From a virus: 25,957 nucleotides of DNA. Below the pieces are notes generated by a model. That model was not told where the DNA came from, made no database searches, and saw nothing but the letters and a program-made list of their open reading frames with translations. Both the position numbers and the translations under genes were made by a program. This document shows, piece after piece, positions 5,232-21,605 of the stretch (within the stretch, counting starts at the first letter, position 1; each line of letters starts with the position of its first letter). The stretch spans positions 1 to 25,957 of the IMG/VR virus record IMGVR_UViG_3300027784_000038, one strand, 5' to 3'.

Positions 5232-5996
5232 TTGTTTAGTAAAGAATTTCAGGAAGAACCCCTCTCACTAATTCTTTTAATATATTTATATGAAAACTCC
5301 AACAGTCCGATTGAATTTAGCTATAAACAGATTGAATCAGATTTGAATATTAGTAAGTATAAGCAGAAAAAGGCATTAGAATTTCTTCAAAATAAAAATA
5401 TGTTGAATATACATAGAGAATTTAGCAGACAAAACAAAACTTGTTTAGCAGAAGTGAATTTAGATAATCCATTAGTCAAAGGAGTGGTAGGGAACTTGAA
5501 AAAACAAGGGGAATTAATAACAGGATTAACCAGAGAGGATTTGACTAGAGAATTAGATGATAACCCTTTATTAACTTATCCCTTCAAGATTAGTGGGAAT
5601 AAAGGAAGAACTATTATGGATTATGGTATGCAGAAGTACATAAAAGCATTTTTTGGGAAGATTAGTTGGGATAAGGTAACATATCGGGATTTAGCTTGTG
5701 TATTAGCAATGTCAGCAGGGAAAAGACATAAAGATATGTTTTTCTACCAGTTGAAAAAAGCTAATTGGGCTGGAAAGATTATAAAAAAGTATTTCAATCA
5801 TATTGAAAAAAGACATTTTTTATCTGTTGCAGTGGAATTTGTAAAAGAGTACGAAAAGAGTTATGATGATGGTCAGGGTCTTAATTGGAACTACATAGAT
5901 AAACACACACAACATAGAAAAAAACTTTTGACAAAAGCAGAAAAGAATGTTATACTAGATGAAAGACAAAAAATAGGTCAGGTACTATGGGAGTGA
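5232..5996 (+). CDS. Putative replication initiator (replisome organizer-like, winged helix N-terminus)
   Basis: The start is placed at TTG 5232, 8 bases after AAGGGAG (5217-5223). The in-frame GTG at 5223 overlaps that ribosome binding site. The 254-residue protein begins with a winged-helix-like segment (about residues 8-75: a leader helix, then FSYKQIESDLNISKYKQKKAL as the HTH). A basic C-terminal half is rich in Lys, Phe and Tyr. It sits immediately before the helicase loader and helicase genes, the usual place for phage initiators (O- or DnaD-like organizers). The function is inferred from the HTH and context. No close family is recognised in the C-terminal part. Confidence 0.55.
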   Translation: MFSKEFQEEPLSLILLIYLYENSNSPIEFSYKQIESDLNISKYKQKKALEFLQNKNMLNIHREFSRQNKTCLAEVNLDNPLVKGVVGNLKKQGELITGLTREDLTRELDDNPLLTYPFKISGNKGRTIMDYGMQKYIKAFFGKISWDKVTYRDLACVLAMSAGKRHKDMFFYQLKKANWAGKIIKKYFNHIEKRHFLSVAVEFVKEYEKSYDDGQGLNWNYIDKHTQHRKKLLTKAEKNVILDERQKIGQVLWE

Positions 5997-6000
5997 TGTC

Positions 6001-6687
6001 ATGGAATATATTGAAAATTGTTGGGCTAAAAGTTATTGTAATTCTTACATGACAGATAACTGTAACAAAAACTGTTTAGGATATCAACAGTTAAAATTTC
6101 TTTATAAAACCAGTGGGATTCCAAAGAAGTATCAGCATCTACATAATTTAGATTTACAGAAATCAGATAAAGGTATTCAAAGTACATTAGAAAATTTTCG
6201 GGACAACATAGTTGAAAATGTGGAAAAGGGCAAAGGAGTTATAATGGTTAGTCAAAATAAGGGGAATGGGAAAACTAGTTGGGCTTGTATTTTTCTTAAT
6301 TCATATTTTCGGGAAATTGCTTTGACCAATAATTTAAGAGTTAGAGGAAAGTTCATCTCTGTTCCTGATTTTCTGCAGGGATTGAGGGATGATTTTGATA
6401 AAGAGCAGAAAGAAATGAATAAGATAAAAAAACATATCAGGGAAGCAGATATTGTTGTGTGGGATGATATTGGAGTAGAGACTCCCACAAAATGGGTTCG
6501 TGAAACATTATATAACTTTATTAATTACAGAATCAGTAATGAAATGACACAGATTTATACATCTAACAGAACAGTTTCGGAACTTGAAAATATTTTAGGA
6601 GAGAGAATTTTCTCCAGAATAAGAGGGCAATGTCTGGGAGTCATTTTTTCCGGGAAGGACATGAGAATTAGGGGGGATAGACATTGA
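6001..6687 (+). CDS. DnaC/DnaI-like helicase loader ATPase
   Basis: A 228-residue AAA+ protein. The Walker A is QNKGNGKT (residues 85-92; the usual first Gly is replaced by Gln), Walker B is IVVWDD (151-156), sensor 1 is in YTSNRT (about 186-191), and an arginine-finger segment ERIFSRIRG follows. This is the layout of DnaC/DnaI loaders, which place the replicative helicase on single-stranded DNA. The N-terminal 25 residues carry C7, C13, C21 and C25, a possible zinc site like that of DnaI-type N-terminal domains. It lies between the initiator and DnaB genes and overlaps the dnaB start by 4 bases. Confidence 0.88.
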   Translation: MEYIENCWAKSYCNSYMTDNCNKNCLGYQQLKFLYKTSGIPKKYQHLHNLDLQKSDKGIQSTLENFRDNIVENVEKGKGVIMVSQNKGNGKTSWACIFLNSYFREIALTNNLRVRGKFISVPDFLQGLRDDFDKEQKEMNKIKKHIREADIVVWDDIGVETPTKWVRETLYNFINYRISNEMTQIYTSNRTVSELENILGERIFSRIRGQCLGVIFSGKDMRIRGDRH

Positions 6688-7973
6688 TAGAATTGCAGTT
6701 CATTAATCAAATTCTTAATGACAGAAGTCTATCTCTAGTTCGACAGAATGATATCAATAAAGACCACTTCACTGCTTATCAGCAGGAATTTGAGTTTTTG
6801 GAAGAACATTACCGGGAATATGGATGTATTCCGGACAAAACAACATTTATTGATAAATTTCCAGACTTTGACATAGTAGATATTCAAGAGAGCAAAAGGT
6901 ATTTAGTTGAGCAACTTAAAGAGCAGTATCTATTTTTGAAAATGTCTCCAGCTATCAGGAAAATAGCTGAATTAGCAGAAGAAGATAGTCGGGAAGCATA
7001 TACATTCCTAAAACAAAAGATAGATGAATTTAATAAAATTTCTAGTACATATATGGAAGGGCAGGATTTAGTCAAAGATTCTGAAGATAGGCTTCAAGAA
7101 TTTAAATCCAGACAAAAGGAAGATGGGTTGTTAGGCATAAAAACAGGGATAGAAGAATTGGATGAAGTAACTCATGGTTGGCAACCAGAGGATTTTGTTT
7201 CAATCATAGCAAGAACATCACAGGGAAAGACATGGTTATTGATGTTTTTTCTAGTACAGGCATGGAAGCAGGGGAAAAGAGTTCTTTTGTATAATGGTGA
7301 ATTACCAAATCATGTTATAGGATTTAGATTTGATACTTTAAATCGACATTTTTCAAATACAGCATTAACCAAAGGGGATGAATCCCTCAATCAAAAATAT
7401 GAGGATTACATAGAAGAATTGAAAAATATGGAGACTCCTTTTGTGGTCATCAAACCTAGAGATATAAAAGGAAAATTAACTGTTAGTAAGGTGGAAGGAT
7501 TAATTGAAAAATATAAACCCGATATCGTGGGGATTGACCAGATAACTTTAATGGAAGATGAAAGGGGGGAGAGGGGTCAACCATCTTATCTGAAATATGA
7601 ACATATTACTGAAGATATTTACCAATTGACTGAAAAATGTGCTGTCCCCATATTAGCACCACATCAAGCGAATCGGGATGCTGATTCTGACTCTGATATT
7701 GAAGATATTGATGATATTGAAGTTCCAAAAATAAGTGAAATTTATGGGAGTGATGCAATTTCTCACAATTGTCGGAGAATCATAACATTCAAGAAAGTAG
7801 ATTTGATGACAAAGCTGGTCTTGAAAAAGAATAATTATGGCAAGGATAATCAGGAGATTCTCATGCTGTGGGATATGGATATCGGATTAATGAAACCATA
7901 TTTAACAGTGGATAAGAGTGAAGGAGAAGAGAGAGTAAAACCAGTTAATCAGGATGACATTAATCTGTTTTAA
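6684..7973 (+). CDS. dnaB: DnaB-family replicative DNA helicase
   Basis: A 429-residue helicase starting at TTG 6684, overlapping the loader stop (TTGA). The N-terminal about 110 residues match the helical DnaB-N region in length and character. The RecA-like motor has Walker A ARTSQGKT (about 176-183), the catalytic glutamate in YNGELP (E206), Walker B IVGIDQ (D285), and HQANR (about 327-331). It would unwind the fork as a hexamer 5' to 3' and recruit primase. The protein ends in QDDINLF, which resembles a beta-clamp-binding tail; this is a guess. The partners encoded nearby (loader, primase, clamp) fit the role. Confidence 0.93.
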   Translation: MIELQFINQILNDRSLSLVRQNDINKDHFTAYQQEFEFLEEHYREYGCIPDKTTFIDKFPDFDIVDIQESKRYLVEQLKEQYLFLKMSPAIRKIAELAEEDSREAYTFLKQKIDEFNKISSTYMEGQDLVKDSEDRLQEFKSRQKEDGLLGIKTGIEELDEVTHGWQPEDFVSIIARTSQGKTWLLMFFLVQAWKQGKRVLLYNGELPNHVIGFRFDTLNRHFSNTALTKGDESLNQKYEDYIEELKNMETPFVVIKPRDIKGKLTVSKVEGLIEKYKPDIVGIDQITLMEDERGERGQPSYLKYEHITEDIYQLTEKCAVPILAPHQANRDADSDSDIEDIDDIEVPKISEIYGSDAISHNCRRIITFKKVDLMTKLVLKKNNYGKDNQEILMLWDMDIGLMKPYLTVDKSEGEERVKPVNQDDINLF

Positions 7974-7992
7974 GGGGAAGGGAAGAGGATGA

Positions 7993-8211
7993 ATGAAAAG
8001 ATGCTATAAAGGATGCACTTTAAAAGCTGTTCTGGACAAGGGTTCAGATGGAATAGAAAGAGTATATGCATCTGCTGTTGATGATGATACTGGTTATATT
8101 ATTATGGAAGAATTTTATTTATCTAATATTACTGTTCCTGAAGTTATGAAGGATATAAAATTAGTTGTTGACTCTTACAGAGAAAATGAAGAATTGTGGG
8201 TAAATAAATAA
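7993..8211 (+). CDS. Small protein of unknown function, 72 aa
   Basis: ATG 7993 follows GGGGAAGGGAAGAGG. It has two cysteines at the N-terminus (MKRCYKGC), acidic residues in the middle and no membrane segment. Predominantly strand-like in the first half with a helix at the end. It lies between dnaB and another unknown gene. No family recognised. Confidence 0.65.
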   Translation: MKRCYKGCTLKAVLDKGSDGIERVYASAVDDDTGYIIMEEFYLSNITVPEVMKDIKLVVDSYRENEELWVNK

Positions 8212-8255
8212 ATATTTTTATTTCTATGAATTCTATGAAGGGAGTGGTAATAAAA

Positions 8256-8651: not shown

Positions 8652-8653
8652 TT

Positions 8654-9037
8654 ATGAGAGAAATTAAGTTCAGAATATGGGATTATAGATATGAAGAAAT
8701 GTGGGAATGGGATAATATGTGTAATAGTGAAGAAGATGTACAAGATTTATTAAATAGAAGATTTTCTGATTTATCTCCTGCAATGCAATATACAGGGTTG
8801 CAAGATAAAAATGGTCAAGATATTTATGAGGGAGATATAGTAAAAGGTGTAGTGATGTTTCATGATGATTTATGGCATGTTGAGGGCGTAATTAAATATA
8901 ATCATGGAAGATTTGTGATAGGCAAGTATAATTGTCCTCTACATAAATTTAGTAATGAAATTGGCAACAAAAATAATGAGATTGAAGTAATTGGGAATGA
9001 ATTTGAACATCCTGCACTACTGGAGAGGGTAGAATGA
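8654..9037 (+). CDS. YopX family protein, first of a tandem pair
   Basis: 127 residues. The family signature is visible: N-terminal IKFRIWD, then MQYTGLQDKNGQDIYEGDIV in the middle, and EVIGNEFEHPALL at the C-terminus. YopX proteins are common in Gram-positive phages and prophages; their biochemical role is unknown. The last 4 bases overlap the start of the neighbouring paralogue at 9034. Ribosome binding site AAAGGGGAATA. Confidence 0.88.
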   Translation: MREIKFRIWDYRYEEMWEWDNMCNSEEDVQDLLNRRFSDLSPAMQYTGLQDKNGQDIYEGDIVKGVVMFHDDLWHVEGVIKYNHGRFVIGKYNCPLHKFSNEIGNKNNEIEVIGNEFEHPALLERVE

Positions 9038-9429
9038 AGATTATTAAATTTAAGGCATGGGATAAACATGAAGAAAAAATGATAAAAGACTTTACAAATT
9101 ATGCTGGTTGGAAAGCAATAACAAATCATATGAATGTTTGGTGTGATGATAGATATATTAAACTACCTTTTACTGGAGTTAAAGATAAAACAGGGAAAGA
9201 TATTTATAAGGGAGATATCCTCTTAAAGAAGAAAAAATGGGGGAATGATATATTAAAAATTAAAGGAAAGGTAGAGTTTAGGAAATTAGATGGTTTTATT
9301 GTTGAGTATATTGGATACAAATGTGAACCCTGTTCTCTTTATGAATTTTGTAGTGCTTTGAGTATAAAAGGAGAAACGATTGAAGTAATAGGTAACGAAT
9401 TTGAACATCCAGAATTATTAAAGGAGTGA
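9034..9429 (+). CDS. YopX family protein, second of a tandem pair
   Basis: 131 residues with the same layout as its neighbour: IKFKAWD at the front, LPFTGVKDKTGKDIYKGDIL in the middle, and EVIGNEFEHPELL at the end. The C-terminal EVIGNEFEHP is identical in the two proteins while the central regions differ, so this is a tandem duplication with uneven divergence. ATG 9034 overlaps the preceding stop. Role unknown. Confidence 0.87.
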   Translation: MKIIKFKAWDKHEEKMIKDFTNYAGWKAITNHMNVWCDDRYIKLPFTGVKDKTGKDIYKGDILLKKKKWGNDILKIKGKVEFRKLDGFIVEYIGYKCEPCSLYEFCSALSIKGETIEVIGNEFEHPELLKE

Positions 9430-9433
9430 GTTA

Positions 9434-10396
9434 ATGTCAGAAACATATATTGAAGTGTATGGTGTTCCAATATTCGCAGACATAAAGGAGATTTTGAAAA
9501 AGTTAGAGGATGAAGGTCACTACATAGGGAAAATTAAGACCACTGGAAATAACTATATGATGGTTTGTCCTTTTCATGATGATAATGACCCCAGTTTAGG
9601 TGTTGCTAGAAAGGATATGATTGACTACTCTGGAAGAAAAATTCCTGCTGGAACTTTTAATTGTTTTGGTTGTTCTTATAGTTCTGATTTAATCGGTTTT
9701 ATATCGGACTTGAAAAAGGTATCCGGGAATGTAGCATATAAGTGGTTGGTTGAAAATTTTGTGGTGGGGGAATACAAGAAGAGGACAATTGATTTAAGTT
9801 TTCTAGATAGGCAAGATGAAGAAGAAATAAGTTTGGATGATTTTGACCATTATCATCCCTATATGGAAAAAAGAGGACTGTCCGGAAATCTAATATATAT
9901 GTATGACATAAGGTATAATCCAGAGCATAATTCCATTGTTTTCCCAATATATTCAAAAGACCATGAATTAATTGGATATCAAGAAAGGGGAGTAGAGAAG
10001 AAGGAAATTTATAGCACTGGTTTTGTCAACACTCTTTTTGGTATGCAGTGGTTAGACCCAGAAGATGATGAAGTTTGGATTGCAGAAGGAGCATTGGATG
10101 CATTAATTTTGAAAAAATTTGGTTATAATTCAGTGGCAATAATGGGGGGATTAAGTCAAGCAAAATTAGATGCAATAGGTAGATTAGACTATAGAGTTTT
10201 TGTGATTGCTTTTGATAATGATGAAGCAGGAGATAGATATGCAAAAGAAGTAGCAGAAACTTTTTCAAATAGATTAGTAAAAAGAGCATTTTTTGAGAAG
10301 GGGGATGACCCGGCAGAGTTATGTGAGGATTGTGATTTTACTCAATGTAGAATGTGTTATGATGAATTTCCAGTAACATTGAAATATATGACATAG
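9434..10396 (+). CDS. dnaG: DNA primase (CHC2 zinc finger plus Toprim)
   Basis: A 320-residue primase. The zinc finger has C45, H48, C77 and C80 (CPFH...CFGC). The Toprim core has the catalytic glutamate in WIAEGALDAL (E218) and the metal-binding FDNDEAG (D261, D263). It makes RNA primers for the phage fork. It is only about half the length of cellular DnaG and lacks a recognisable helicase-binding C-terminal domain. Instead the C-terminus holds a second four-cysteine group, C297xxC300x4C305xxC308, which looks like another zinc knuckle. ATG with an AAGGAGTGAG ribosome binding site, 4 bases after the YopX-like gene. Confidence 0.9.
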   Translation: MSETYIEVYGVPIFADIKEILKKLEDEGHYIGKIKTTGNNYMMVCPFHDDNDPSLGVARKDMIDYSGRKIPAGTFNCFGCSYSSDLIGFISDLKKVSGNVAYKWLVENFVVGEYKKRTIDLSFLDRQDEEEISLDDFDHYHPYMEKRGLSGNLIYMYDIRYNPEHNSIVFPIYSKDHELIGYQERGVEKKEIYSTGFVNTLFGMQWLDPEDDEVWIAEGALDALILKKFGYNSVAIMGGLSQAKLDAIGRLDYRVFVIAFDNDEAGDRYAKEVAETFSNRLVKRAFFEKGDDPAELCEDCDFTQCRMCYDEFPVTLKYMT

Positions 10397-10407
10397 GGGG
10401 GTGAATT

Positions 10408-11064
10408 ATGCAATCTACTTATCAAAGTTTGATTCCCTGTTCTCAATTACTGGATGAAGATGATTATGATGTATTAATTGATTTATATAAGAAAGAAAAG
10501 AGAAGGGATGAAATTGTGGCAAAGATTTTTTGTGATAATTATATATATTTGATAAATAGGGGGAAGAAGTACATATCCATAGAAGAGGAAGATAAAGCTA
10601 GTTTTGCATTAGAATCAATTCATGATGCATTAGAAACTCATGATGGTAGAGATATTAAGTTAATTACATTAATTGGATTTTATTATGAAAGAAAGTTGAA
10701 AAATACTATTGAGTATCAAAATAGAGAGAAAAGAAAAACTAGTAAGGATTTAGAAAGTACAGATATGTTGCAGGAGCAGGCAGTTAGGAATGAAGATTCA
10801 GTAGATGATTTAGGTTTTACATATAAACATAATTTGTGTGGAAATACAATGGGAACAGTTGATTTTAATAACTCTCTATTGAAGTTGAAAATCAAAGAAT
10901 CAGAAATGCTATCTGATTTACAGAAGGAAATTTGTAAATTGATGTTAGAAAGCAATGGCACTATGACTTATCGTGAAATGGGAGAAGAGTTGGATATCAG
11001 TGGAGAATGGGTTAGAGTTCAACTTGAAAAAATAAAGGATAAAGAGTTATCGAAAATTTTATAA
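10408..11064 (+). CDS. Sigma70-like factor (phage sigma)
   Basis: 218 residues. The N-terminal half looks like sigma region 2 (a helical stretch from about 25 to 110 with FYYERKLKNTIEYQNREKRKT). The C-terminal about 55 residues look like region 4: LQKEICKLML..., then the HTH YREMGEELDISGEWVRVQLEKI. It would direct RNA polymerase to phage promoters. Similar divergent sigma-like proteins control middle or late genes in several phages. It is followed within 6 bases by copy 2 of the TGCTGTATATTAT motif (11070-11100), which it might recognise; that link is inference. Start ATG after GGGGGGTGAATT. Confidence 0.7.
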   Translation: MQSTYQSLIPCSQLLDEDDYDVLIDLYKKEKRRDEIVAKIFCDNYIYLINRGKKYISIEEEDKASFALESIHDALETHDGRDIKLITLIGFYYERKLKNTIEYQNREKRKTSKDLESTDMLQEQAVRNEDSVDDLGFTYKHNLCGNTMGTVDFNNSLLKLKIKESEMLSDLQKEICKLMLESNGTMTYREMGEELDISGEWVRVQLEKIKDKELSKIL

Positions 11065-11069
11065 ACTAG

Positions 11070-11100: not shown

Positions 11101-11138
11101 TGTATGGAACATAAAAATTATAAGGGGGTATTTACTTA

Positions 11139-11801
11139 ATGGGTTTACAAGACAAATTTGATAAGTATTCAGGTGGAGCAGGAGCAGAATATTTTCATCT
11201 TGCAAATGATAAAGACACTGCTATAGTCAGATTTCTATATACAACAGAGGATGATGTTGATAAACATGGCAGTGTGGTTATTCATGATGTTGAGATTGAT
11301 GGGAAAAATAGGAAGGTAAAATGTCTATTACAGAACTGTCCTTTGTGTGAAGCTGGTATTAAGAATAGAGCAAGGCTGTTGTTGCAGTTAATTGAGTATG
11401 ATGAAGAGGGTAATAAGAAGGATGGGGGCAAGGTGAAGGTTTGGGATAGAGGAAAGAGAATTTTACCGGACATTATTGATATGCTCAATAGATATGCTCC
11501 ACTCTACAGATTTACCACTGAAATTGTGAGACATGGAGAAAAGAATGACCCAAATACTCAATACAGATTATATCCACAATTGGATGATGAAAAGACATTT
11601 ATTGAAGATACAGAAGAAGCAAGGGAAGAAATGAAAGAATTAAGAGAGGAAATAATTGGAGAAAATAATATGGTAATTGAGAGAGATAAGGAAGATTTGA
11701 AAAAGATTGCTGAAGGAACATTTACTTTTAATAATGGAACAAATGATGGTCAATCAGACACTGAAAAGACTAGTAGTAGAAATCCTGCAAGTTATTTTTA
11801 G
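11139..11801 (+). CDS. Single-stranded DNA-binding protein, phage type
   Basis: 220 residues. The layout resembles the SSB-like proteins of large Gram-positive phages: an N-terminal strand region with AIVRFLY, a zinc-ligand-like segment KCLLQNCPLCEAGIK (about residues 60-75), then KVWDRGKRILPDI and a strand pair IVRHGEKNDPNTQYRLYP, with an acidic helix and a Ser/Asn-rich C-terminal tail ending in a Phe. It would coat single-stranded DNA at the phage fork. The position right before the polymerase and clamp supports this. The OB fold is not shown directly by the sequence. ATG start after AAGGGGGTATTTACTTA. Confidence 0.68.
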   Translation: MGLQDKFDKYSGGAGAEYFHLANDKDTAIVRFLYTTEDDVDKHGSVVIHDVEIDGKNRKVKCLLQNCPLCEAGIKNRARLLLQLIEYDEEGNKKDGGKVKVWDRGKRILPDIIDMLNRYAPLYRFTTEIVRHGEKNDPNTQYRLYPQLDDEKTFIEDTEEAREEMKELREEIIGENNMVIERDKEDLKKIAEGTFTFNNGTNDGQSDTEKTSSRNPASYF

Positions 11802-11837
11802 GTTTGCATATATGAGGGGGTTATGGTTTTGGTGGTT

Positions 11838-11888: not shown

Positions 11889-14111
11889 GTGAGACACAGT
11901 TTGTTAGATGACTCTAAAAAACGAAATAAGAGATTAATCCAGAAATTAAAGAATAAGAAAAAGGCAAAAAAGACAGTAAGTACAAATAAATTAAAATTTC
12001 AACTTGATAAATTACATAGTAAGATTGATGAATATTTTGATGAAGATTATGAATATGACATTATTATGGACAGTCAGGAATTATACGACTATTTGACAAA
12101 GGGAGAAATTTATGGTCTTGACACAGAATCCGATACGATAAATGAACCTAATCCATTGGTTGACACAATGGTTGGGTTTTCTGCATATTCTAGAGAAAAT
12201 GAAAAAGCTATATATGTTCCGACAAAGCATAAGAAAACCCACTTGATAACTCATGATTATAAGTACGATTATTCAAAACAGTTGTCAGAAGAAGAAGTAA
12301 AAGAAGTTATGCAGGAAGTTGATTCTAAATTTGTTCTTCATACTGCCACTTATGATAGCCGGGTATTCCTTAATTCAACTGGTTATTTTAATTTTGATTC
12401 CATAATTTGGGATGTGTTTTTAGCATCTATATATTTAAATGAACTTGAAAAACATGGATTGAAGGCACTATATGATAAGTATGTTAAGGGGTCGGGCAAG
12501 GAATCATTAGGATTCAAAGAACTTTTTGAGGATTTAGATTTCAGCATAGTTCCTCTTGATTTGGCAAAGTTATATGCTGGTAAGGATGCAGTGATGACAC
12601 TGGAACTTTACTATTTTCAACTGGAGCATTTGCATCCAGAAGGGAAATATACAGAAGAGCATGAGTTGAAAGATGCAGGTCATTTCTTTGTTAATTGGGA
12701 AGTTCCTCTGATTAAACCAGTGGCAATGATGGAAGAAAGAGGGATGAATTTTGATTATGAGTATTCGCAGAAATTGAAGGAAAAATATGTTGAAAAATTA
12801 AATACAATTGAAAAAAGGATTCATGACTTTTTTGATAAATTAGATTTTTCAAAATTACCTAGAGAGAAAAAAGATAAATTGGGTGAACCAGTTAATATAG
12901 CAAGTCCCCAACAGATATCTATTATATTATATGATGTTTTAGGTCTTGATTATGAAAGCAGAACTACAGATGTAGATTGCTTAAAACATTTTGCTGGAAA
13001 ATTGCATGGGGATAAAAAGAAATTTTTTGAAGATATGCTTGAGTATAGAACAGTAAGTAAGCTAATTAGTACATATATTGATAATCTACCAGAATTAGTT
13101 CATGAGGATGGGAAAATACACACCAGATTACATCAAATGGGGGCAAGGACTGGTAGATTTTCAAGCAGTGACCCGAATCTTCAAAATATCCCAAAGAAAA
13201 ATAAGGAAATCAGAAGAATGTTTACTGCAGAAAAAGGTAAGGTTCTAATTTGTAGTGATTATTCTCAACAAGAACCTAGAGTTCTTGCATATATTTCTGG
13301 GGATGAAAAGATGATTGAAAGATACCAGCAAGACAGAAATTTGGATTTATACAGTTTGGTTGCTAGTATCATTTTTGAAGTTCCCTATAATAGCTGTCTA
13401 AAAGGGGCAGAGAATGAGAAATTTAGGACACTATGTAAGGCAATTTTGTTGGGGATAATGTATGGAAGGTCAATCGGGAGTGTAGCTGAATCATTAGGAA
13501 AAAGTTACAAGGATACAAAGAAATTATTGGATGAAATAAATAGAAGATTTCCCGGTATAGAATCAGCTATTCGTGGAGCAACAAGATTTTGTGAGGATAA
13601 AGGATTTGTGCAGACTATACATGGTCGGAAGAGAAGATTACCGGATATTCATTTACCAAAATTTGAAGTATTTGCAAAGGATGAAGGTAAAAGGCAGGAG
13701 TATCTTACAAAACTATGGAATACAAATAGTTTTAAAGAGATACAGAGATTGAAGAATCAGGCAAAAGCAGAGGGAATCCACATAAAAGATAACACAGGTT
13801 TTATAGCTAAAGCAAAAAGACAGGCTATTAACAGCATCATTCAGGGCAGTAGTGCAGATATGATTAAGAAGTCTATAGTCATGATTGAGGATAATCAAGA
13901 TTTGAAAAATCTAGGATATGAATTATTGTTGACAGTGCATGATGAAGTTATCGGACAGATACCTTTTGAATGGGATAAGATAGAAAAGGCAAAGACAATT
14001 ATCACTGATATAATGGTCAGAGCAGGAGAACCTGTAACTGTTCCAATGAAAGTTGACCATGAAGTTCAGTTTAGATGGAATGGGAAAAAATTGAAACCAG
14101 AGGGGGAGTAA
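11889..14111 (+). CDS. polA: Family A DNA polymerase with 3'-5' exonuclease
   Basis: 740 residues, GTG start after GAGGAAGGGGG. There is no 5' nuclease domain. The proofreading exonuclease has D78xE80 (GLDTES), HTATYDSRVF as Exo II and YAGKD as Exo III. The polymerase has motif A CSDYSQQEPR (D457), motif B R-x3-K517-x7-Y525 (LCKAILLGIMYG) and motif C TVHDEV (D685). The position equivalent to E. coli Pol I Phe762 is Leu521, an uncommon residue known from many viral family A enzymes. This is very likely the phage replicative polymerase, since the helicase, primase, clamp and clamp loader are encoded around it and no Pol III alpha gene is present. The sliding clamp gene starts one base after its stop. 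Confidence 0.96.
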   Translation: MRHSLLDDSKKRNKRLIQKLKNKKKAKKTVSTNKLKFQLDKLHSKIDEYFDEDYEYDIIMDSQELYDYLTKGEIYGLDTESDTINEPNPLVDTMVGFSAYSRENEKAIYVPTKHKKTHLITHDYKYDYSKQLSEEEVKEVMQEVDSKFVLHTATYDSRVFLNSTGYFNFDSIIWDVFLASIYLNELEKHGLKALYDKYVKGSGKESLGFKELFEDLDFSIVPLDLAKLYAGKDAVMTLELYYFQLEHLHPEGKYTEEHELKDAGHFFVNWEVPLIKPVAMMEERGMNFDYEYSQKLKEKYVEKLNTIEKRIHDFFDKLDFSKLPREKKDKLGEPVNIASPQQISIILYDVLGLDYESRTTDVDCLKHFAGKLHGDKKKFFEDMLEYRTVSKLISTYIDNLPELVHEDGKIHTRLHQMGARTGRFSSSDPNLQNIPKKNKEIRRMFTAEKGKVLICSDYSQQEPRVLAYISGDEKMIERYQQDRNLDLYSLVASIIFEVPYNSCLKGAENEKFRTLCKAILLGIMYGRSIGSVAESLGKSYKDTKKLLDEINRRFPGIESAIRGATRFCEDKGFVQTIHGRKRRLPDIHLPKFEVFAKDEGKRQEYLTKLWNTNSFKEIQRLKNQAKAEGIHIKDNTGFIAKAKRQAINSIIQGSSADMIKKSIVMIEDNQDLKNLGYELLLTVHDEVIGQIPFEWDKIEKAKTIITDIMVRAGEPVTVPMKVDHEVQFRWNGKKLKPEGE

Positions 14112-14112
14112 G

Positions 14113-15177
14113 ATGCTAAAAATACCTACTAGAAAATTGAAGGATGCTGTTGAAAAAGTAGGTAAGATGATTGGTAGTAATTCTGTTATGGAAATATGTA
14201 ATTATTTAGAAATTATATATTTGGAAAATCAGTTGGTGATGACTGCCACTGATAAGACAATGGCAATTACTGTTGTAGTGGATATTGAAGAGCAGGATGA
14301 AGAGGATTTTGAAGTTGTGGTAGAGGGTAAGAAATTTTGTGATTTAGTTAAAAATAGCACTGTAGATACAATTAAGGTCACTCCAGAGGATTATCACTTA
14401 AAATTTGTTGGTAATGGAAATTATAAAATAAAGTATTTCAATAGTAGGTTTTTTGAATATGATGTAAGTCCAGAGTATGTGTTTGAACTTGATGGTGAGC
14501 AGTTATTGAAGATTATAAGCAGACATGAAGGCACTGTCTATGAAAAGATGGGAGTATTAGGTGGTTTTTATATCACAAATCAGGATATTGTCACTCTTGA
14601 TAATAATAAAATGGCATTGACTCAAATGAGTTTATTTGATGAAGATGTGGAATTACTGATACCAGCAGAATTAATGGAGTTTGTCCAGCTATTTGATAAA
14701 AGCAGTCAAATAAAGTTGATGGTAGATGGTCAGAAAGTTCTATTTTCAGACAATAGTTTATCAGTTTTTGGTGGACAATTATATGGTATTGAAGAGTATC
14801 CTGATATATCTTCATATAAATCAATGGAATTTGAAAATTTTGCTAAAGTGGAAGTGGAGTTACTCAAGAAAAGTTTGAAGAGAGTGGGGCTTTTTGTAAT
14901 AGAGGAAGATGAATTTGGGGTTAATGTTATGTTAAAAGATGGTGTTTTAAGTGTGTGGGACACAAAAAATCAGTCTCTGGAAGAAGTAGATTGTCTAGAG
15001 AGTGAAGGAACTTTTGATTGTACTGCATCTTTAACAGATTTACAGCTATTTTTGAAAAATATTGGGGCAAAGAATGTTATTTTGAAATTTGATGGGGGTA
15101 GAGCATTGAATATGACTAATGAGCATATTGAAACAAATTATTATAGTGCAATCATAAGAGACAAAGGGGGAAGATAA
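14113..15177 (+). CDS. dnaN: DNA polymerase sliding clamp, beta (DnaN) type
   Basis: 354 residues, close to the length of bacterial beta clamps. The N-terminal domain shows the family pattern (KLKDAVEKVGKMI, YLEIIYLENQLVMTATDKTMAI). Two further domains of similar size follow, ending in the C-terminal TNYYSAIIR, comparable to the family's C-terminal region. As a ring-shaped dimer it would tether the adjacent family A polymerase. Overall divergence from host-type DnaN is large. It contains QMSLF (171-175), which looks like a clamp-binding peptide, in domain 2. ATG with AGGGGGAGTAAG, one base after the polymerase stop. Confidence 0.9.
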   Translation: MLKIPTRKLKDAVEKVGKMIGSNSVMEICNYLEIIYLENQLVMTATDKTMAITVVVDIEEQDEEDFEVVVEGKKFCDLVKNSTVDTIKVTPEDYHLKFVGNGNYKIKYFNSRFFEYDVSPEYVFELDGEQLLKIISRHEGTVYEKMGVLGGFYITNQDIVTLDNNKMALTQMSLFDEDVELLIPAELMEFVQLFDKSSQIKLMVDGQKVLFSDNSLSVFGGQLYGIEEYPDISSYKSMEFENFAKVEVELLKKSLKRVGLFVIEEDEFGVNVMLKDGVLSVWDTKNQSLEEVDCLESEGTFDCTASLTDLQLFLKNIGAKNVILKFDGGRALNMTNEHIETNYYSAIIRDKGGR

Positions 15178-15178
15178 A

Positions 15179-15976
15179 ATGAGTTTAGACACATTAGTGG
15201 AAAAATTAGCAACAAGGAGTAAAGATATACCAGATGAAGAGTATTTAGTTAATGCGATTAATGAAGTTACAGTGCAGGAGTTTGGTGGCAGAAAACCATC
15301 AACATATTACTCCCCTTCAGGATTGGATAAATGTTTAAGAAGTTTGTATTATAAAAGATTGGGAGTAGATATTGACCCGAATCCTGATATTGAAGTTAAG
15401 AATTGTGAAAAAGCAGAATCAGGGGAAGATAGGCATGAAAGGATTCAACAGAAGATAGTATTAGCTTCTGATAAATATGATTTTGATATTGTGTGGGTAG
15501 ATGTGGAGAAATTTATTAAGCGTAGGGGTTTGGATTATCTAGAAGTAGTTTTTAAAGATGAATATGAAGTTCTTTTGCTAGATAATAGATTTGATTTAAG
15601 ATTTAGGATTGATGGGTTGGTGAAAATAAAAGGGAGATATTACATAATTGAGATAAAAACTGATAATCCTGATTTCTGGCAGAGAAGAACCTATGTTTCA
15701 AAGTGGCATAATATGCAAGGGTATTGTTATGCATTGAGTCTCCAGTTGGATACTATTATTTATCTGTATGAAGAAAGGAAAGATTTTCAAAAACAACCAT
15801 TGGTTAAGAAAGTTTCTGAAGAAGAGAAGCAGAAAGTTGTGGAGAAAATAAATAAGACAGAGGATTACATACAAAATGAAGAATTACCACCGAAAGATAT
15901 AAGTAAATGCATGTTTTGTGATTATAAGATTAAATGTAAGGAAAATTATAATCCAAAGGAAGGTGATAATAATTAA
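15179..15976 (+). CDS. Cas4/RecB-like PD-(D/E)XK nuclease with probable Fe-S cluster
   Basis: 265 residues. The nuclease core has H86 (EDRHERIQ), D145 (RIDGLVKI), E158xK160 (YIIEIKT) and a QxxxY-type motif (MQGYCYAL). One cysteine lies before the core (C52 in DKCLRSLYY) and three after it (CMFC at 244 and 247, C253). This is the 1+3 cysteine layout that holds a 4Fe-4S cluster in Cas4 and AddB-type nucleases. It probably resects or processes DNA ends for recombination with the phage RecA encoded 1 kb downstream. No CRISPR array or other cas gene is present, so a Cas role is not suggested. ATG one base after the clamp stop. Confidence 0.85.
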   Translation: MSLDTLVEKLATRSKDIPDEEYLVNAINEVTVQEFGGRKPSTYYSPSGLDKCLRSLYYKRLGVDIDPNPDIEVKNCEKAESGEDRHERIQQKIVLASDKYDFDIVWVDVEKFIKRRGLDYLEVVFKDEYEVLLLDNRFDLRFRIDGLVKIKGRYYIIEIKTDNPDFWQRRTYVSKWHNMQGYCYALSLQLDTIIYLYEERKDFQKQPLVKKVSEEEKQKVVEKINKTEDYIQNEELPPKDISKCMFCDYKIKCKENYNPKEGDNN

Positions 15977-16427
15977 TCTTTTTGAAAGAGATATAAGTGA
16001 TAGTCTCACTAGGTTGGAAGATGTGATGTGGGGAATGAGGATTCCTGATAGTTCTTATGGGAAGAAACCATCTGCTTGTGATTTTTTGGTGTTGAATTAT
16101 GGATTGTTGATGGGGGTTGAATGTAAAATGATTACAGATGGAAGTAAAAGTTTCCCCTTTGATAAAATCAGTGAAAATCAGGTAGAGGGGTTGAAAAGAA
16201 TAAATGATTGTGGGGGAAAGGGGCTTCTGTTGTTTAATTTCAGGTGGATGGGGTCAGGAAAGTGCAAGGGCAAGGTATTTTGCATAGATATATTAGAGTT
16301 TTTGTATCTTGAGCATGCTTTAGATAGACAATCTATACCACTGGATTATTTTCAACAAAACACTCTTGAATTACCAAAGCTAGAATTAGAAGAGGGATAT
16401 GGTTGGGATTTAAGGGTGTTAAAATAA
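15963..16427 (+). CDS. RecU-like PD-(D/E)XK Holliday junction resolvase (putative)
   Basis: About 154 residues. The core PSACDFLVLNYGLLMGVECK gives D40 and E53xK55 of a PD-(D/E)XK nuclease, followed by ISENQVEGL and GGKGLLLFNF. This order is seen in RecU and related phage resolvases. It would cut Holliday junctions made during recombination-dependent replication. The start is uncertain. GTG 15963 lies too close to its ribosome binding site, whereas AAGG at 15960-15963 points, with an 8-base spacer, to ATT 15972, which would also overlap the previous stop as other genes here do. The functional call is moderate; nuclease fold likely. Confidence 0.6.
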   Translation: MIIINLFERDISDSLTRLEDVMWGMRIPDSSYGKKPSACDFLVLNYGLLMGVECKMITDGSKSFPFDKISENQVEGLKRINDCGGKGLLLFNFRWMGSGKCKGKVFCIDILEFLYLEHALDRQSIPLDYFQQNTLELPKLELEEGYGWDLRVLK

Positions 16428-16442
16428 GGGGGAATATGTATA

Positions 16443-16970: not shown

Positions 16971-16973
16971 TGG

Positions 16974-18020
16974 ATGTCAAAACTTGAGCAGGCAATAAAC
17001 AAAATTAATAAAAAGTCAGGTTCTTCTCTTATAATGGAGAAATTTGATTATAGTAACATTCAGAAAATACCATTTCCTTCTCCCAAATTAAATTGGCAGT
17101 TATATGGGGGATTACCTTTGAAAAGGATAACAGAGATTGCCGGAGAAGCAGGGTCAGGAAAAACAACAACTGCATTAGGATTTGTGGGACAGGCACAAAA
17201 AATGTTTCCAGAGAAAAGAGCATTATTTATTGATGCTGAATATACATTAGATTTGGATTGGGCTGAAAAGTTGGGGGTTGATACTGAAAATTTGCTTCTT
17301 ATGAGACCGGAAGTCACTACTTCAGGTGAAGATGTTATGGATTACATAATGGAATTAACTTCTACAGAAGAATTATCTGTGATTGTTTTGGACAGTTATC
17401 CAGCACTGACTCCATCAAATCAAATGTCGAAAAGTGTTAGTGAAAATACATATGCTGGTTTGAGTCTCCCATTTACTAAATTTTGCCGGGATATAATAAA
17501 GTTGCTCCAGCGATATAATACTAGTTTATTCATAACTAATCAGGTTAGAGAAGATATGAATAATCCATTTAATCAATATAGAACTCCCGGTGGTAAGGCT
17601 TTTCAGCATTATGGAGCATTGAGATTATTTTCAAAAAAGGGCAGTATGTTAGACTCTGATAATAAGGAAATTTCAAGAAATGCAGAAAGACCAGCAGGGC
17701 ATTTAGTCAATATAAAAATTGTAAAGACAAAAGTCTCAAAACCTAACAGACCATTTTCAAGTTATACTTTGAATTTTATGGAAGGGATTGATGTGATACA
17801 GGATACAATTGATACTGCTGAAAAATATGACATTATTGTTAGGGCTGGAGCATGGTATAGGATAATTGACCCGGACACAGGGGAGATTTTACAGGATTCA
17901 GATGGGGAAGAGTACAAATATCAAGGGAAGGCAAATTTAAGGCAGGCACTGAAGGAGAATGAGGATGTGTTTCAAATGGTATCTGATAGAGTTAATGAGA
18001 AAATCTTGAATCCTGCTTGA
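16974..18020 (+). CDS. recA: RecA-family recombinase
   Basis: 348 residues. Walker A GEAGSGKT (57-64), catalytic glutamate in FIDAEYTLD (E89), Walker B VIVLDS (D140), and an L2-like region with TNQVRED...TPGGKAFQHYG. The protein keeps the RecA core but is diverged from host RecA in the N-terminus and C-terminus, as phage recombinases usually are. It would pair DNA strands for repair or recombination-dependent replication, together with the neighbouring nucleases and SNF2 helicase. ATG after AGGGGGTTAATGG. The stop codon lies inside the -35 box of promoter-like motif copy 3. Confidence 0.92.
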   Translation: MSKLEQAINKINKKSGSSLIMEKFDYSNIQKIPFPSPKLNWQLYGGLPLKRITEIAGEAGSGKTTTALGFVGQAQKMFPEKRALFIDAEYTLDLDWAEKLGVDTENLLLMRPEVTTSGEDVMDYIMELTSTEELSVIVLDSYPALTPSNQMSKSVSENTYAGLSLPFTKFCRDIIKLLQRYNTSLFITNQVREDMNNPFNQYRTPGGKAFQHYGALRLFSKKGSMLDSDNKEISRNAERPAGHLVNIKIVKTKVSKPNRPFSSYTLNFMEGIDVIQDTIDTAEKYDIIVRAGAWYRIIDPDTGEILQDSDGEEYKYQGKANLRQALKENEDVFQMVSDRVNEKILNPA

Positions 18021-18051
18021 TATGGTAGGGGTTTCTGCTGTATATTATAAT
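18017..18051 (+). promoter_or_regulatory. Phage promoter-like motif, copy 3
   Basis: TTGATA (18017-18022, overlapping the recA stop), 18 bases, TATATT (18041-18046), within TGCTGTATATTATAATG, which is identical over 17 bases to copy 1. A transcript starting about 7 bases after TATATT would have a leader of only about 12 bases before GTG 18065, just enough for the AGGGGTGAT ribosome binding site. It would drive the 18065 to 22164 genes, including the clamp loader. Confidence 0.6.
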
Positions 18052-18064
18052 GAGGGGTGATAGT

Positions 18065-18376
18065 GTGGATAAAAAGATAGAAGAGCAACAATTAACAGTG
18101 GATGAAAAAAGAGCAAGGGCAATGAAAAAAGCTAATGAGCAGATGAAAGAAATGGGCAAGGTAGTTGAGGAAAATTTATTAGAGGAAGAAAATGAAGAGG
18201 AAGAGAAAAAATGTCTGCAAGAGTGGTTAGAAGATTATAAGGTCGAAATTTTGAATCCCGGAAAAGCTAATGATTTAGAAATTGATTTAACAAAGAATGA
18301 ATTTTTAGATTTATTAGGTAGAGTAACTATCAGAATAAAACATGATTCTAAATTAAGAAAGGAGTGGAATGTTTGA
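18065..18376 (+). CDS. Acidic coiled-coil protein of unknown function, 103 aa
   Basis: The start is GTG 18065, preceded by AGGGGTGAT. An in-frame ATG at 18050 lies within or just after the promoter-like motif and has no ribosome binding site. Residues 1-60 form a highly charged Glu/Lys/Met-rich helix with a run of acidic residues. The rest is mixed alpha/beta. It overlaps the next gene by 4 bases (TTGA). Function unknown. Confidence 0.65.
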   Translation: MDKKIEEQQLTVDEKRARAMKKANEQMKEMGKVVEENLLEEENEEEEKKCLQEWLEDYKVEILNPGKANDLEIDLTKNEFLDLLGRVTIRIKHDSKLRKEWNV

Positions 18377-18726
18377 GTAGAGAAATAAGCAAACCCCATG
18401 AAGAGAAGGTAGCAAGTATTATTCGGATGGTGGATGAATCAGCTTATGTTGTTAAAAGCAGTGGGGCTTGTGATTTTCATGATGGTGATGTTAAATTTAA
18501 AGCAGGACTGGTAGAGTGTAAAACAATGAAAAATCCTCAAAAACAGCAGACAATTAAGAAGGAAGATTTAGAAAAATTAGAGGAAGAAGTTTTCAGGAAT
18601 AGTCTGGACATTGCCACACTTGCATTTAATTTTGGTGATTTGACCGGGAAGGAATATTTTATTGTGGAAGAAACTGATTTCATAAATATGCTTTATGCTT
18701 ATTTGAAAGGAGAAGATAAAGAATGA
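18373..18726 (+). CDS. Hjc-like PD-(D/E)XK nuclease, putative Holliday junction resolvase
   Basis: The start is TTG 18373, 8 bases after AAGGAG (18359-18364) and overlapping the previous stop. GTG 18364 coincides with the ribosome binding site. The 117-residue protein has E10 near the N-terminus, then SSGACDFHDG (D34) and AGLVECKTMKNPQ (E48xK50), the motif order of small archaeal-type Hjc resolvases and related phage nucleases. It is a second possible resolvase besides the RecU-like gene at 15963, or it may act on other branched DNA. Length fits the Hjc family. Confidence 0.65.
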   Translation: MSREISKPHEEKVASIIRMVDESAYVVKSSGACDFHDGDVKFKAGLVECKTMKNPQKQQTIKKEDLEKLEEEVFRNSLDIATLAFNFGDLTGKEYFIVEETDFINMLYAYLKGEDKE

Positions 18727-18729
18727 TAG

Positions 18730-18822
18730 ATGAAAATGAAAATATTGATTGGGAACTTGTTTGATGTATTATACAAGATTATTGAAAAAGAAGGGAGTCA
18801 CATAATTGGAATCAGAAAATAA
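18730..18822 (+). CDS. Possible very small protein (30 aa)
   Basis: A short frame with a Leu/Ile-rich centre (ILIGNLFDVLYKIIEK) overlapping the start of the next gene. The ribosome binding site AAAGGAG at 18706-18712 fits better with a competing ATG at 18723 that encodes only 13 residues. Either could be a translated coupling peptide, or the 79 bases between 18726 and 18806 may be non-coding. TTGATT (18745) and TATTAT (18767) here make a poor promoter candidate. Confidence 0.25.
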   Translation: MKMKILIGNLFDVLYKIIEKEGSHIIGIRK

Positions 18823-18991
18823 GATATGTACTCCGGTTGATATAAGATATAAAAATAGGATTTTAGGGGTGGATTTATTTCAGGTTTATTTTATTGATGA
18901 AGATTTTGTTATTTTACAATTTGAAGATTACATTGCGAAACGAACTTTGATACAATCATTAGATACTATTTTATCTATATATGAAATATAA
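18806..18991 (+). CDS. Small protein of unknown function, 61 aa
   Basis: TTG 18806 is 8 bases after AAGGGAGT. The protein looks like a small beta-rich domain (VDLFQVYFIDEDFVILQFEDY) with a C-terminal helix, one cysteine and no membrane segment. It ends 10 bases before the dnaX start. No family recognised. Confidence 0.6.
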   Translation: MESENKICTPVDIRYKNRILGVDLFQVYFIDEDFVILQFEDYIAKRTLIQSLDTILSIYEI

Positions 18992-19001
18992 GGGGGAAAA
19001 G

Positions 19002-20009
19002 ATGCGAATGAGTACATTAGCTGTGAAATATAGACCAAAAACATTTTCAGATGTGATTGGTCAGGATGTAATTGTGGAGATTTTGAGTAAACAACTAGAG
19101 AATAATGATGTGGCATCTGGATATCTTTTTAGTGGGAGCAGTGGCATTGGTAAAACTACTGTCGCAAGAATTGTGGCAGATAGTTTAAATGCCGATATAA
19201 AGGAGATAGATGGGGCTAGCAACAACAGTGTTGATAACATAAGGCAGGTGAGAAGCGACACAAGGCTGAAATCCATAAGCAGTGATTGGAAGGTGTATAT
19301 CATTGATGAAGCACACATGCTTTCTAAAGGGGCATTTAATGCACTTTTGAAAACACTGGAAGAACCACCGGAAAATGTAATGTTCATTCTAGCAACAACA
19401 GAACCCGAAAAGATTCCAAAAACTATTCAGACCAGACTCCAGCATTTTAAATTTTCAAGATTGAACTGGAAAGACATAAAAGGTAGATTGGCAGAAATTG
19501 CAGAGGAAGAGAATATTGAAGTAGAAGAAGAGATACTTGATTATATAGCAAAAGTGGCAGATGGTGGGGTTAGGACTGCAATCAATCTACTGGAGAAAGC
19601 TATACAGTTAGATAGTGTTACTGTTCAGGTCATCACAGAATTGTCCGGTGCTGTGGAGTACAAGGATGTTTTCAAGCTGTTGGCAACTCTAATAGAGGGT
19701 CAAGCAGACCAGTTAATACAATTGATTGAATCCATGTATGAAGCAGGGAAGAATCTTGAGAAATTTATAGAACAATGTTGTTATTTCACAACTGATTTAG
19801 CTAAATACGCTATGTTCAGGAATTTTGAATATGTTAAAATACCGGCAGTTTATGAAGAAGATTTATTGAAGTTGCTGGATATTGTTAAAAATAATGATGT
19901 GAAATTAAGGGAGTTATTTAATCAACTGAATCAGTTACGATATGATTTGCGATATGAAAATGATAAGAAAATATTAATAGAAGCAGTGTTACTGCAGATT
20001 GGGGGATAA
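19002..20009 (+). CDS. dnaX: Clamp loader ATPase subunit, DnaX (gamma) type
   Basis: The start is ATG 19002, 5 bases after AGGGGG, and the protein has 335 residues. It shows the family order: AVKYRPKTFSDVIGQ, Walker A GSSGIGKT (45-52), EIDGASNNSVDNIR, Walker B DEAH (102-105), NALLKTLEEPP, and sensor 1 ATTEPEKIP. The usual SRC arginine finger is TR (144-145). The four-cysteine zinc module that normally lies between SLN and the EIDxAS motif is missing entirely. It corresponds to domains I-III only (gamma form), without the tau extension. With the next two genes it forms a complete gamma/delta'/delta loader that would open the phage clamp. Confidence 0.93.
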   Translation: MRMSTLAVKYRPKTFSDVIGQDVIVEILSKQLENNDVASGYLFSGSSGIGKTTVARIVADSLNADIKEIDGASNNSVDNIRQVRSDTRLKSISSDWKVYIIDEAHMLSKGAFNALLKTLEEPPENVMFILATTEPEKIPKTIQTRLQHFKFSRLNWKDIKGRLAEIAEEENIEVEEEILDYIAKVADGGVRTAINLLEKAIQLDSVTVQVITELSGAVEYKDVFKLLATLIEGQADQLIQLIESMYEAGKNLEKFIEQCCYFTTDLAKYAMFRNFEYVKIPAVYEEDLLKLLDIVKNNDVKLRELFNQLNQLRYDLRYENDKKILIEAVLLQIGG

Positions 20010-20010
20010 G

Positions 20011-20712
20011 ATGATAGGTCAGAAAAGATTACTTAAAAAAGAGTTTCCTCAATTTGTGATTTTGATTGGGAAAGCAGGGAGTGGGAAGAAAACTTTAGTC
20101 AGGGAGAAATTTGATAATCTGGTAGAGGGATTTTCAAAAGTGGATGATGTTAGATGGATAATAGAGGATTCTAGGGATTTGGTTGACATGAGGACATATC
20201 TTCTAGATGGTAATGAAATGACATATCAAGCACAAAATGCTCTTTTGAAAATAACAGAAGAACCCAATGAGAAAACCCGAATCATTTTAACAGGGAGATT
20301 TCAGAAACAATTCCTAAACACATTATTATCAAGAGCAACAATTTTTCACATGGATACCTATAGTAAGGAAGAATTGATGAATTTTACCGATAAACCAGAA
20401 TTAATTGGTATTTATGGAACTCCGGGACTATTGGTTCAATATGATGAAGAATTAGTCTATATGGTAGAAAAATTGGCTCATAGCATTAAATCAGGTACTA
20501 TATCCCAAATGTTTGAGGGAATTGACTCGATAAGCGAATTTTGCTCTATATATGGTGTTAAGTCACCAATAGTTATGAAAACACTAAAATGGCAGTTTCG
20601 GAAAAATCCTGAAGCAATCCGGTTAATTTCAAAATCAGAGTATTATGCGATAAAAAACTTTAATTTCATATTTGAGGAATTGGTCATTAAGATAAGGGGG
20701 GTTGTAGGGTGA
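20011..20712 (+). CDS. holB: Clamp loader delta' subunit-like (HolB)
   Basis: The start is ATG 20011, directly after GGGGGATAAG and overlapping nothing. TTG 19999 is in frame but ahead of the ribosome binding site. The 233-residue AAA+ protein keeps a Walker A (GKAGSGKKT, 20-28), the MTYQAQNALLKITEEP motif shared by DnaX and HolB, ILTGR as sensor region, and LLSRAT with the SR arginine finger. The DExH box is degenerate (DGNE). This suits delta', which supplies a finger to its neighbour. It sits between dnaX and the delta-like gene; its stop overlaps the next GTG. Confidence 0.8.
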   Translation: MIGQKRLLKKEFPQFVILIGKAGSGKKTLVREKFDNLVEGFSKVDDVRWIIEDSRDLVDMRTYLLDGNEMTYQAQNALLKITEEPNEKTRIILTGRFQKQFLNTLLSRATIFHMDTYSKEELMNFTDKPELIGIYGTPGLLVQYDEELVYMVEKLAHSIKSGTISQMFEGIDSISEFCSIYGVKSPIVMKTLKWQFRKNPEAIRLISKSEYYAIKNFNFIFEELVIKIRGVVG

Positions 20713-21605
20713 ATTTTAAGCAGTTTCAAAAATTAGATTTTAATGAGTATAAAGAGAAATATTTGTTAATCGGAAAAAATCCATTGTCTGATATAGTAGA
20801 GGATATGTATTTTGATGATTACAAGATATTGGATGATACAGAGATACCAAAAAGAGAGGGGTTCACTGATAGTGGGTTGTTGATATTGGGAAGTCAGGAT
20901 GTATTAGGAGAAGATTTTTCAGAGTTGGATTTTGGGAGTTTTGGGAGTAAAGTTTTGATTCAGATTCCAGCACATTTGTATGACAGGAGAAGGAAAATAT
21001 TCAAAAATGCTAATGATGATGACATAATTGACACAACTGCAGATGGCAATAAAGATTTATTGATTGGCAGGATACAGCAAAAACTAAAGGTAACTAAACC
21101 ATCTGCAATTAAATTATTTGAAGCATGTTCAGGGGTCAATGATATATTTTGTAGGATTGACCAGTTTAAGTATCTAGAACCAGCAGAAGTTGAAAGTATA
21201 ATTGACAGTTTATTTGTGTATGAGGATTACTTAATTTTTAATTTGATTGATGCTATTCTGACTGGAAAAACAGAGGATGGTGAAACTCCTTTTGATATCT
21301 ACGAAAAGCTAGAGGATGAAGATTTTAAATTGATGTATATGCTGACAAAGCAGGTCAAGAACATAATGATTTGTAAGGATTTCATGATAAATGAAACTAA
21401 TGAAAATATTTCAAATAAATTCGGTATCCATCCTTATCAGGTAAAGATTTTCAAATCACAGGCTGGAACATTTTCAATGGAAGAGTGGGAAAAGATATTT
21501 CTGTATTTATGTACAGTAGAAAAGGACATGAAAAGGGGCAAAATAACACCAAAGTTGGCACTGAATTGGGTTATAATGTATATTTCAAATTTGAGAAGGT
21601 TTTAG
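20709..21605 (+). CDS. holA: Clamp loader delta subunit-like (HolA)
   Basis: 298 residues, GTG start overlapping the previous stop. The N-terminal domain has lost ATP-binding motifs, as in delta. The C-terminal half matches the delta pattern well: LIFNLIDAILTGKTEDG, LMYMLTKQVKNIMICKDFM, SNKFGIHPYQVKIFKSQA, FSMEEWEKIFLYLC, and ending with LALNWVIMYI. Delta is the clamp-opening wrench. The N-terminal part is strongly diverged and would be missed by simple searches. Position after dnaX and holB supports the call. Confidence 0.82.
   Translation: MNFKQFQKLDFNEYKEKYLLIGKNPLSDIVEDMYFDDYKILDDTEIPKREGFTDSGLLILGSQDVLGEDFSELDFGSFGSKVLIQIPAHLYDRRRKIFKNANDDDIIDTTADGNKDLLIGRIQQKLKVTKPSAIKLFEACSGVNDIFCRIDQFKYLEPAEVESIIDSLFVYEDYLIFNLIDAILTGKTEDGETPFDIYEKLEDEDFKLMYMLTKQVKNIMICKDFMINETNENISNKFGIHPYQVKIFKSQAGTFSMEEWEKIFLYLCTVEKDMKRGKITPKLALNWVIMYISNLRRF

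Follow-up and report, generated by a model that had tools for sequence, protein, structure and literature searches.

A phage replication module in which a family A DNA polymerase probably works with its own beta clamp and three-part clamp loader

The stretch analysed here (the window) is the whole IMG/VR record IMGVR_UViG_3300027784_000038, which comprises 25,957 bases, is treated as a fragment, is about 92% coding and carries nearly all of its listed genes on the + strand. The subject of this work is its replication module, which encodes a DnaC-type helicase loader, a DnaB helicase, a CHC2/Toprim primase, a single-strand DNA-binding protein (SSB), a family A DNA polymerase, a beta clamp and the clamp-loader proteins DnaX, delta' and delta. 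All these genes had been listed in an earlier sequence-only reading; they lie on the + strand in open reading frames, and the Pfam and PHROG profiles agree with each assignment. The central claim of that reading, a self-contained beta clamp with a gamma/delta'/delta loader beside a family A polymerase, was borne out by the profiles and, for the clamp and delta, by AlphaFold2 models. The suggestion that the module represents a distinct, new replisome plan was not supported, as the Streptococcus phage Dp-1 was already annotated with an equal gene set and order, and the arrangement is common in uncultured viruses.

The polymerase (11889..14111; PF00476, E-value 6.5e-85) has a 3'-5' exonuclease domain (PF01612, 3.5e-8) and no 5' nuclease domain, and its translation keeps the catalytic motifs DYSQQEPR and HDE as well as the exonuclease motif DTE. 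Translation starts at a GTG codon, and GAGGAAGGGGG upstream of it is a good ribosome-binding site. Polymerase residues 1-620 are encoded with 100% identity by a further contig, L115 (IMGVR_UViG_3300000557_000708), which stems from a second assembly of this phage or of one almost identical to it. A profile search of the record gave no match to the Pol III alpha subunit (PF07733), and no family B polymerase is present in it. A scan of genome contigs returned only cellular-type Pol I of about 30% identity and no clear prophage. The gene that follows encodes a three-domain, beta-type sliding clamp (14113..15177; PF00712, 1.2e-14; phrog_947, 2.3e-26). Its AlphaFold2 model, built from a 44-sequence alignment, reached a predicted local distance difference test (pLDDT) score of 94.6, and bacterial beta clamps align with it over 345-349 of 354 residues (Z 36). 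The test for a clamp and loader of the T4 type (two-domain gp45, gp44/gp62) was negative, the clamp being of the three-domain beta type and the loader parts matching PF13177 and PF21694.

The genes for DnaX, delta' and delta are contiguous at 18981-21605, and neighbouring genes overlap by a few bases. DnaX (18981..20009; PF13177, 4.4e-31; PF22608, 2.4e-8; phrog_5846, 5e-85) is of gamma length (342 residues), with Walker A GSSGIGKTT, Walker B IIDEAH and the trans-acting Arg (TRLQHF in the translation). Its Pfam matches end at gamma domain III, and both the zinc module and the tau C-terminal domains are absent. The description of the replisome as bacterial-style has to be limited accordingly. 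Some DnaX frames among the relatives are 600-720 residues long (L056, L059). The HolB-like delta' (19999..20712; PF13177, 8.5e-12; phrog_5846, 3e-23) has an Arg in LSRAT and retains the full P-loop GKAGSGKKT, as does its Dp-1 counterpart (GEVGSGRKT), while E. coli delta' has lost ATP binding. The HolA-like delta (20709..21605) matches PF21694 above the Pfam cut-off (3.6e-19), and the profile of its family matches Bacillus subtilis delta (3zh9) with an E-value of 1.2e-30. Used as a direct query against IMG/VR and phages, the window delta yielded no relatives; these were reached via DnaX and polymerase alignments. The AlphaFold2 model of the protein (pLDDT 88 from 43 sequences, residues 41-53 unsure) has the delta fold expected of a loader subunit, its best match being B. 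subtilis delta (Z 16.3), then that of E. coli (Z 13.6), with subunits of RFC at Z 9.6 and below.

Relatives of the module were studied in 50 records picked by DnaX similarity, namely 48 IMG/VR contigs and the complete genomes of the pneumococcal Streptococcus phages Dp-1 (HQ268735; 56.5 kb) and MS1 (KY629621), by whole-record profile searches. PolA was found in 41 of them, the beta clamp in 45, the C-terminal part of delta in 38 and Pol III alpha in three. According to a count from the tables, 33 of the 50 records hold PolA, clamp and delta jointly. Pol III alpha is absent from all 33, which include contigs of 102 kb and 205 kb, and PolA in turn is absent from the three records, 210-218 kb long, in which Pol III alpha occurs. 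The Pol III alpha gene that would have spoken against the sequence-only reading was absent from the record and from related long contigs, and the complete Dp-1 and MS1 genomes gave no candidate for PF07733. The gene order also recurs in Dp-1, MS1 and most of the uncultured viral contigs, where PolA, the clamp and DnaX-delta'-delta follow one another on a single strand. In a second set of 80 polymerase loci, the clamp gene lies downstream of the polymerase in most contigs of sufficient length. In a maximum-likelihood tree of 77 DnaX proteins, 16 of them bacterial, 43 viral rows (the window, Dp-1, MS1 and 40 other contigs) form one clade with support 99/94 and no bacterial DnaX inside; the window and four contigs (L005, L007, L116 and L008) form a branch that is sister to the remaining clade. 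A single viral clade free of bacteria argues for one old viral loader lineage, a conclusion that wider bacterial sampling could alter.

A short hydrophobic peptide directly after the start codon is a shared trait of the related family A polymerases. In the window it is encoded by the MRHSLLDD codons (11889..11912, + strand), a candidate clamp-binding peptide after which a Lys-rich linker comes, and it aligns with MQNSLF (L005), MKNTLL (L007), MRGTLL (L116) and MAQKGLF (Dp-1, MS1). Other relatives start with MEQLSLF (L182), MEQISLF (L178) or MNLWGEEF, and the rumen-type contigs with MALF, MPLF or MAGLF. The motif L[FW] lies within residues 2-12 in 57 of 66 non-redundant PolA N-termini, as against 32 of 757 (4%) other open reading frames of the same contigs, an enrichment whose nominal probability is not fully meaningful because the sequences are related. 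Besides L[FW], nine PolA proteins have Gln at motif position 1. The published beta-clamp-binding consensus is QL(S/D)LF, in which Leu is tolerated at position 5 and Gln is helpful and non-essential, and Hda bears its clamp motif at the N-terminus (PMC11139829). The QLSLF of L182 is identical to this consensus. E. coli Pol I, too, is known to interact with the beta clamp (PMC6010275). Polymerases sampled from T7, T5-like, N4-like and SPO1-like phages and from mycobacteriophages showed no such N-terminal motif.

The tau C-terminal domains of bacterial DnaX bind Pol III alpha and DnaB. With a DnaX that has no tau tail, the bacterial-type link between polymerase and helicase is missing. The DnaB-type replicative helicase of the window (6684..7973, + strand; PF03796, 4e-20; phrog_19, 1.1e-54) ends in NQDDINLF, and a C-terminal Phe is found in 45 of 47 DnaB proteins (40 of 42 distinct tails), the background in open reading frames being 15%. 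Acidic residues are usual in these tails, for example in KEDVF and GEDVF. The SSB (11139..11801, + strand; phrog_14578, 9e-42) ends in NPASYF, and 80 of 83 non-redundant SSB tails end in Phe or Tyr; Gp70 of Dp-1 matches the same phrog_14578-type family. In T7, the family A polymerase has basic patches to which the acidic tails of the helicase bind (PMC12593628), and, to judge from the title of a 2009 article that PMC9917605 cites, the terminal Phe of the T7 SSB is important for the polymerase. By analogy, the DnaB tail may be regarded as the best candidate for the missing polymerase-helicase link. The literature searched, whose reach did not extend to the 2011 Dp-1 paper and the 2016 viral replication survey, contains no description of the N-terminal polymerase peptide or of Phe-ending DnaB tails, and the study of the Dp-1 host interactome mentions no contact between polymerase and clamp in its main text.

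The remaining genes of the module lie around these parts. The AAA+ helicase loader of DnaC/DnaI type, with Walker A GNKGNGKT (6001..6687; phrog_50, 2.2e-46; PF00308; PF01695), occupies the same gene position as in Dp-1 and MS1. The gene in front of it (5223..5996, + strand), described in the sequence-only reading as initiator-like, fared less well: it has no Pfam match, its marginal DnaD/O-like matches (phrog_186, E-value 0.0046; phrog_345, 0.011) point at most to a possible winged-helix initiator or partner of the helicase loader, and among the loci scanned a homologue was found in L116 only. Two YopX-family proteins stand in tandem at 8654-9429, followed by the DnaG-type primase with its CHC2 zinc finger and Toprim domain (9434..10396; PF01807, 3.4e-11; PF13155, 3.3e-11; phrog_47, 7.6e-42) and a sigma-like gene recognised by a weak match (10408-11064). 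Between clamp and loader, the + strand encodes a Cas4/RecB-like PD-(D/E)XK nuclease of the same module (15179..15976; phrog_1706, 3e-38; PF12705), a RecU-like Holliday junction resolvase (15963..16427; phrog_843, 6e-15; PF03838, 3.8e-6), a RecA/UvsX-like recombinase (16974..18020; PF00154, 9.9e-38) and a second small protein resembling Holliday junction resolvases (18364..18726; phrog_2002, 1.2e-15). Possible clamp motifs are also seen in the RecU-like resolvases of the window's subgroup, at the N-terminus MIIINLFERD in the window and as MNLFES in L005 and L007, and in the protein at 1189-1737, which starts with MSLFNEK. After the module, the large subunit of ribonucleotide reductase (RNR) is split into an N-terminal part (22168-22512) and the rest (23230-25281) by an HNH endonuclease with a helix-turn-helix (22614-23129). 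The split at 22168-25281 looks like a mobile intron or insertion; an Rfam search of the window matched no intron and no other RNA. Insertions and splits are frequent in the replication genes of this group (L005, L042, L046, L051, L065), and the L005 polymerase (L005:1525-2460) has an insert of about 310 residues with a weak intein-splicing match (E-value 0.003).

The best explanation of these data, to which a probability of about 0.74 is assigned, is that the window holds the replication module of a phage with its own clamp-dependent family A replicase. In such a replisome, the DnaC-type loader would place DnaB, and the separate primase would lay primers. DnaX, delta' and delta, presumably as a gamma3-delta-delta' pentamer, would load the phage beta clamp at the primed sites, where the family A polymerase would grip it via the extreme N-terminal peptide (MRHSLL here, QLSLF-type in relatives), joined by the Lys-rich linker to the exonuclease domain. 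The clamp-held polymerase would copy processively with its own proofreading, and the Phe-ending, usually acidic DnaB tail may link helicase to polymerase in the manner of the T7 helicase tails. Joint action of the parts had earlier been drawn from gene order; we infer the same, backed by the conserved terminal motifs and by gene order in many genomes. With odds only slightly better than even, the module would belong to a widespread viral replisome lineage which combines a T7-like Phe-tail link between DnaB and polymerase with a beta clamp, a tau-less DnaX/delta'/delta loader and an N-terminal polymerase tether. No biochemical work on such a lineage was found in the literature searched.

Several points weigh against the proposed clamp-dependent replicase. 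The record is a fragment, so the absence of Pol III alpha from it covers 25.96 kb of the phage only. The loader stoichiometry, the polymerase-clamp binding and the helicase-polymerase coupling are proposed from sequence, and the significance attached to the motif counts takes no account of common descent. The window's own candidate motif is degenerate, with Arg for Gln and Leu for Phe. The clamp-binding wedge of E. coli delta is AMSLF; the corresponding wedge is SLF-like in L041, L009 and L052, and in the window the putative counterpart has diverged to KREGF, within a low-confidence stretch of the model. Moreover, polymerases of pelagiphage/023Pt type (L267-L346), which come from clamp-less phages, start with QxPLF (MTQIPLFQ, MRSTQIPLF, MSTQRPLF), so the N-terminal motif may partly reflect use of the host clamp. 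Bacillus/Listeria-type polymerases (L195-L265) start with an LxLxL peptide (MDVKLTLNL, MEGLRLNLN), which resembles the clamp motif, six residues long, that Pol IV or Hda carries. No phrog_947 clamp was found in the whole records searched for either group, and their polymerases likely use the host clamp. The motif as a mark of own-clamp phages only was rejected on account of the QxPLF of the clamp-less group. Salmonella phage ZCSE2 and Vibrio phage 033B proved unsuitable as clamp-less controls, as both carry clamps: the 'hypothetical protein' upstream of Pol I in ZCSE2 is a phrog_947 clamp (6.6e-44), and the annotated clamp of 033B also matches phrog_947 (loci L200:404-1402 and L349:98-1057).

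Four other explanations were considered. The phage clamp and loader might serve host Pol III by recruiting PolC or DnaE, the family A enzyme being left for gap filling, recombination or repair. Both are bacterial in type, many phages that encode no polymerase rely on the host's Pol III, and the record is a fragment. This explanation is nevertheless judged unlikely, since the 342-residue DnaX lacks the tau domains by which bacterial DnaX contacts Pol III alpha and DnaB, proofreading without a 5' nuclease suits a replicase and not an enzyme of Okazaki repair, PolA and Pol III alpha never occur together in the 50 records, and the clamp-type N-terminal peptide sits on the phage polymerase. It appears quite unlikely that this peptide evolved for the host clamp and that the phage clamp is a late, competing addition, as the single viral clade of 43 rows in the loader tree speaks for loader, clamp and polymerase having long been together; the QxPLF and LxLxL starts of the two groups without a phrog_947 clamp would be in line with such an origin.

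The clamp could also be mainly a platform for the recombination and repair proteins (RecU, the Cas4-like nuclease, the resolvase), with a polymerase that is clamp-free like that of T5. This is rated as very improbable: the Cas4-like, RecU and RecA genes do come after the clamp gene, and RecU starts with a clamp-motif-like peptide, but the polymerase is where such a motif is most consistent, and in 033B and ZCSE2 it is the polymerase gene that the clamp gene adjoins, the recombination set not being a neighbour. A chimeric contig, or host DNA taken for phage, would account for the absence of structural genes from the 25.96-kb record. The high coding density, the placement of almost all listed genes on the same strand, the identity of PolA residues 1-620 in the independent contig L115 and the synteny with Dp-1 and many viral contigs make its probability almost negligible.

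In bacteria, clamp and loader are treated as one unit with Pol III. If the proposed replisome lineage is borne out, the two would prove separable from this enzyme and able to be reassembled with an unrelated polymerase. The viral lineage appears to swap the polymerase and to keep the clamp and three-part loader, and this swap spans dozens of distinct viruses. Such a module would offer a compact, testable system for the minimum needs of a loader (no tau, no zinc module), for family A processivity without thioredoxin and for the question of whether a clamp's choice of polymerase is set by clamp-binding peptides. Family A polymerases of this kind, being small, capable of proofreading and equipped with a clamp of their own, could find practical application in DNA synthesis as well. 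Of lasting value are the breadth of the lineage and two concrete, testable motifs rather than the gene list.

With the bacterial Pol III holoenzyme the window shares the clamp fold (Z 36), the delta fold (Z 16.3 to B. subtilis delta) and the DnaX/delta'/delta set; it differs in having no alpha subunit in the record, a family A polymerase and a DnaX without tau domains and zinc module. The T7 replisome also has a family A polymerase and an acidic helicase tail with terminal Phe, but it uses thioredoxin, has no clamp or loader and fuses primase to helicase. A family A polymerase with a beta-type clamp, reported without an obvious loader, is known from TOSV-like viruses of Aquificae (PMC7689252), and the same two parts, the only ones compared, are found in Queuovirinae 033B and in ZCSE2. 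Closest in organisation are Dp-1, with the order SNF2 helicase, DnaC, DnaB, DnaG, sigma, SSB, Pol I and then, across the genome ends, DnaN, RecB/Cas4, RecU, dUTPase, RecA, ligase-like protein, DnaX, delta' and HolA, and MS1, which is alike. The window likewise has an SNF2 helicase and DnaC-DnaB-primase-sigma-SSB upstream of the polymerase, and Cas4-RecU-RecA between clamp and loader. Dp-1 and MS1 differ by genes for dUTPase and a ligase-type protein within the module, and the window by the split RNR after it. The idea that the 'ligase' Gp16 of Dp-1 is a misnamed resolvase was rejected, as Pfam shows a true NAD-ligase N-terminal domain. The polymerase of Dp-1 and MS1 has QKGLF at its N-terminus, and identity to the window amounts to 36-38% for the polymerase, 39-41% for DnaX, 27-31% for delta', 24% for the clamp and 19-21% for delta. 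Given its place on a branch sister to Dp-1 and MS1 in the DnaX tree, the window module is best read as a deep-branching member of the kind already present in Dp-1.

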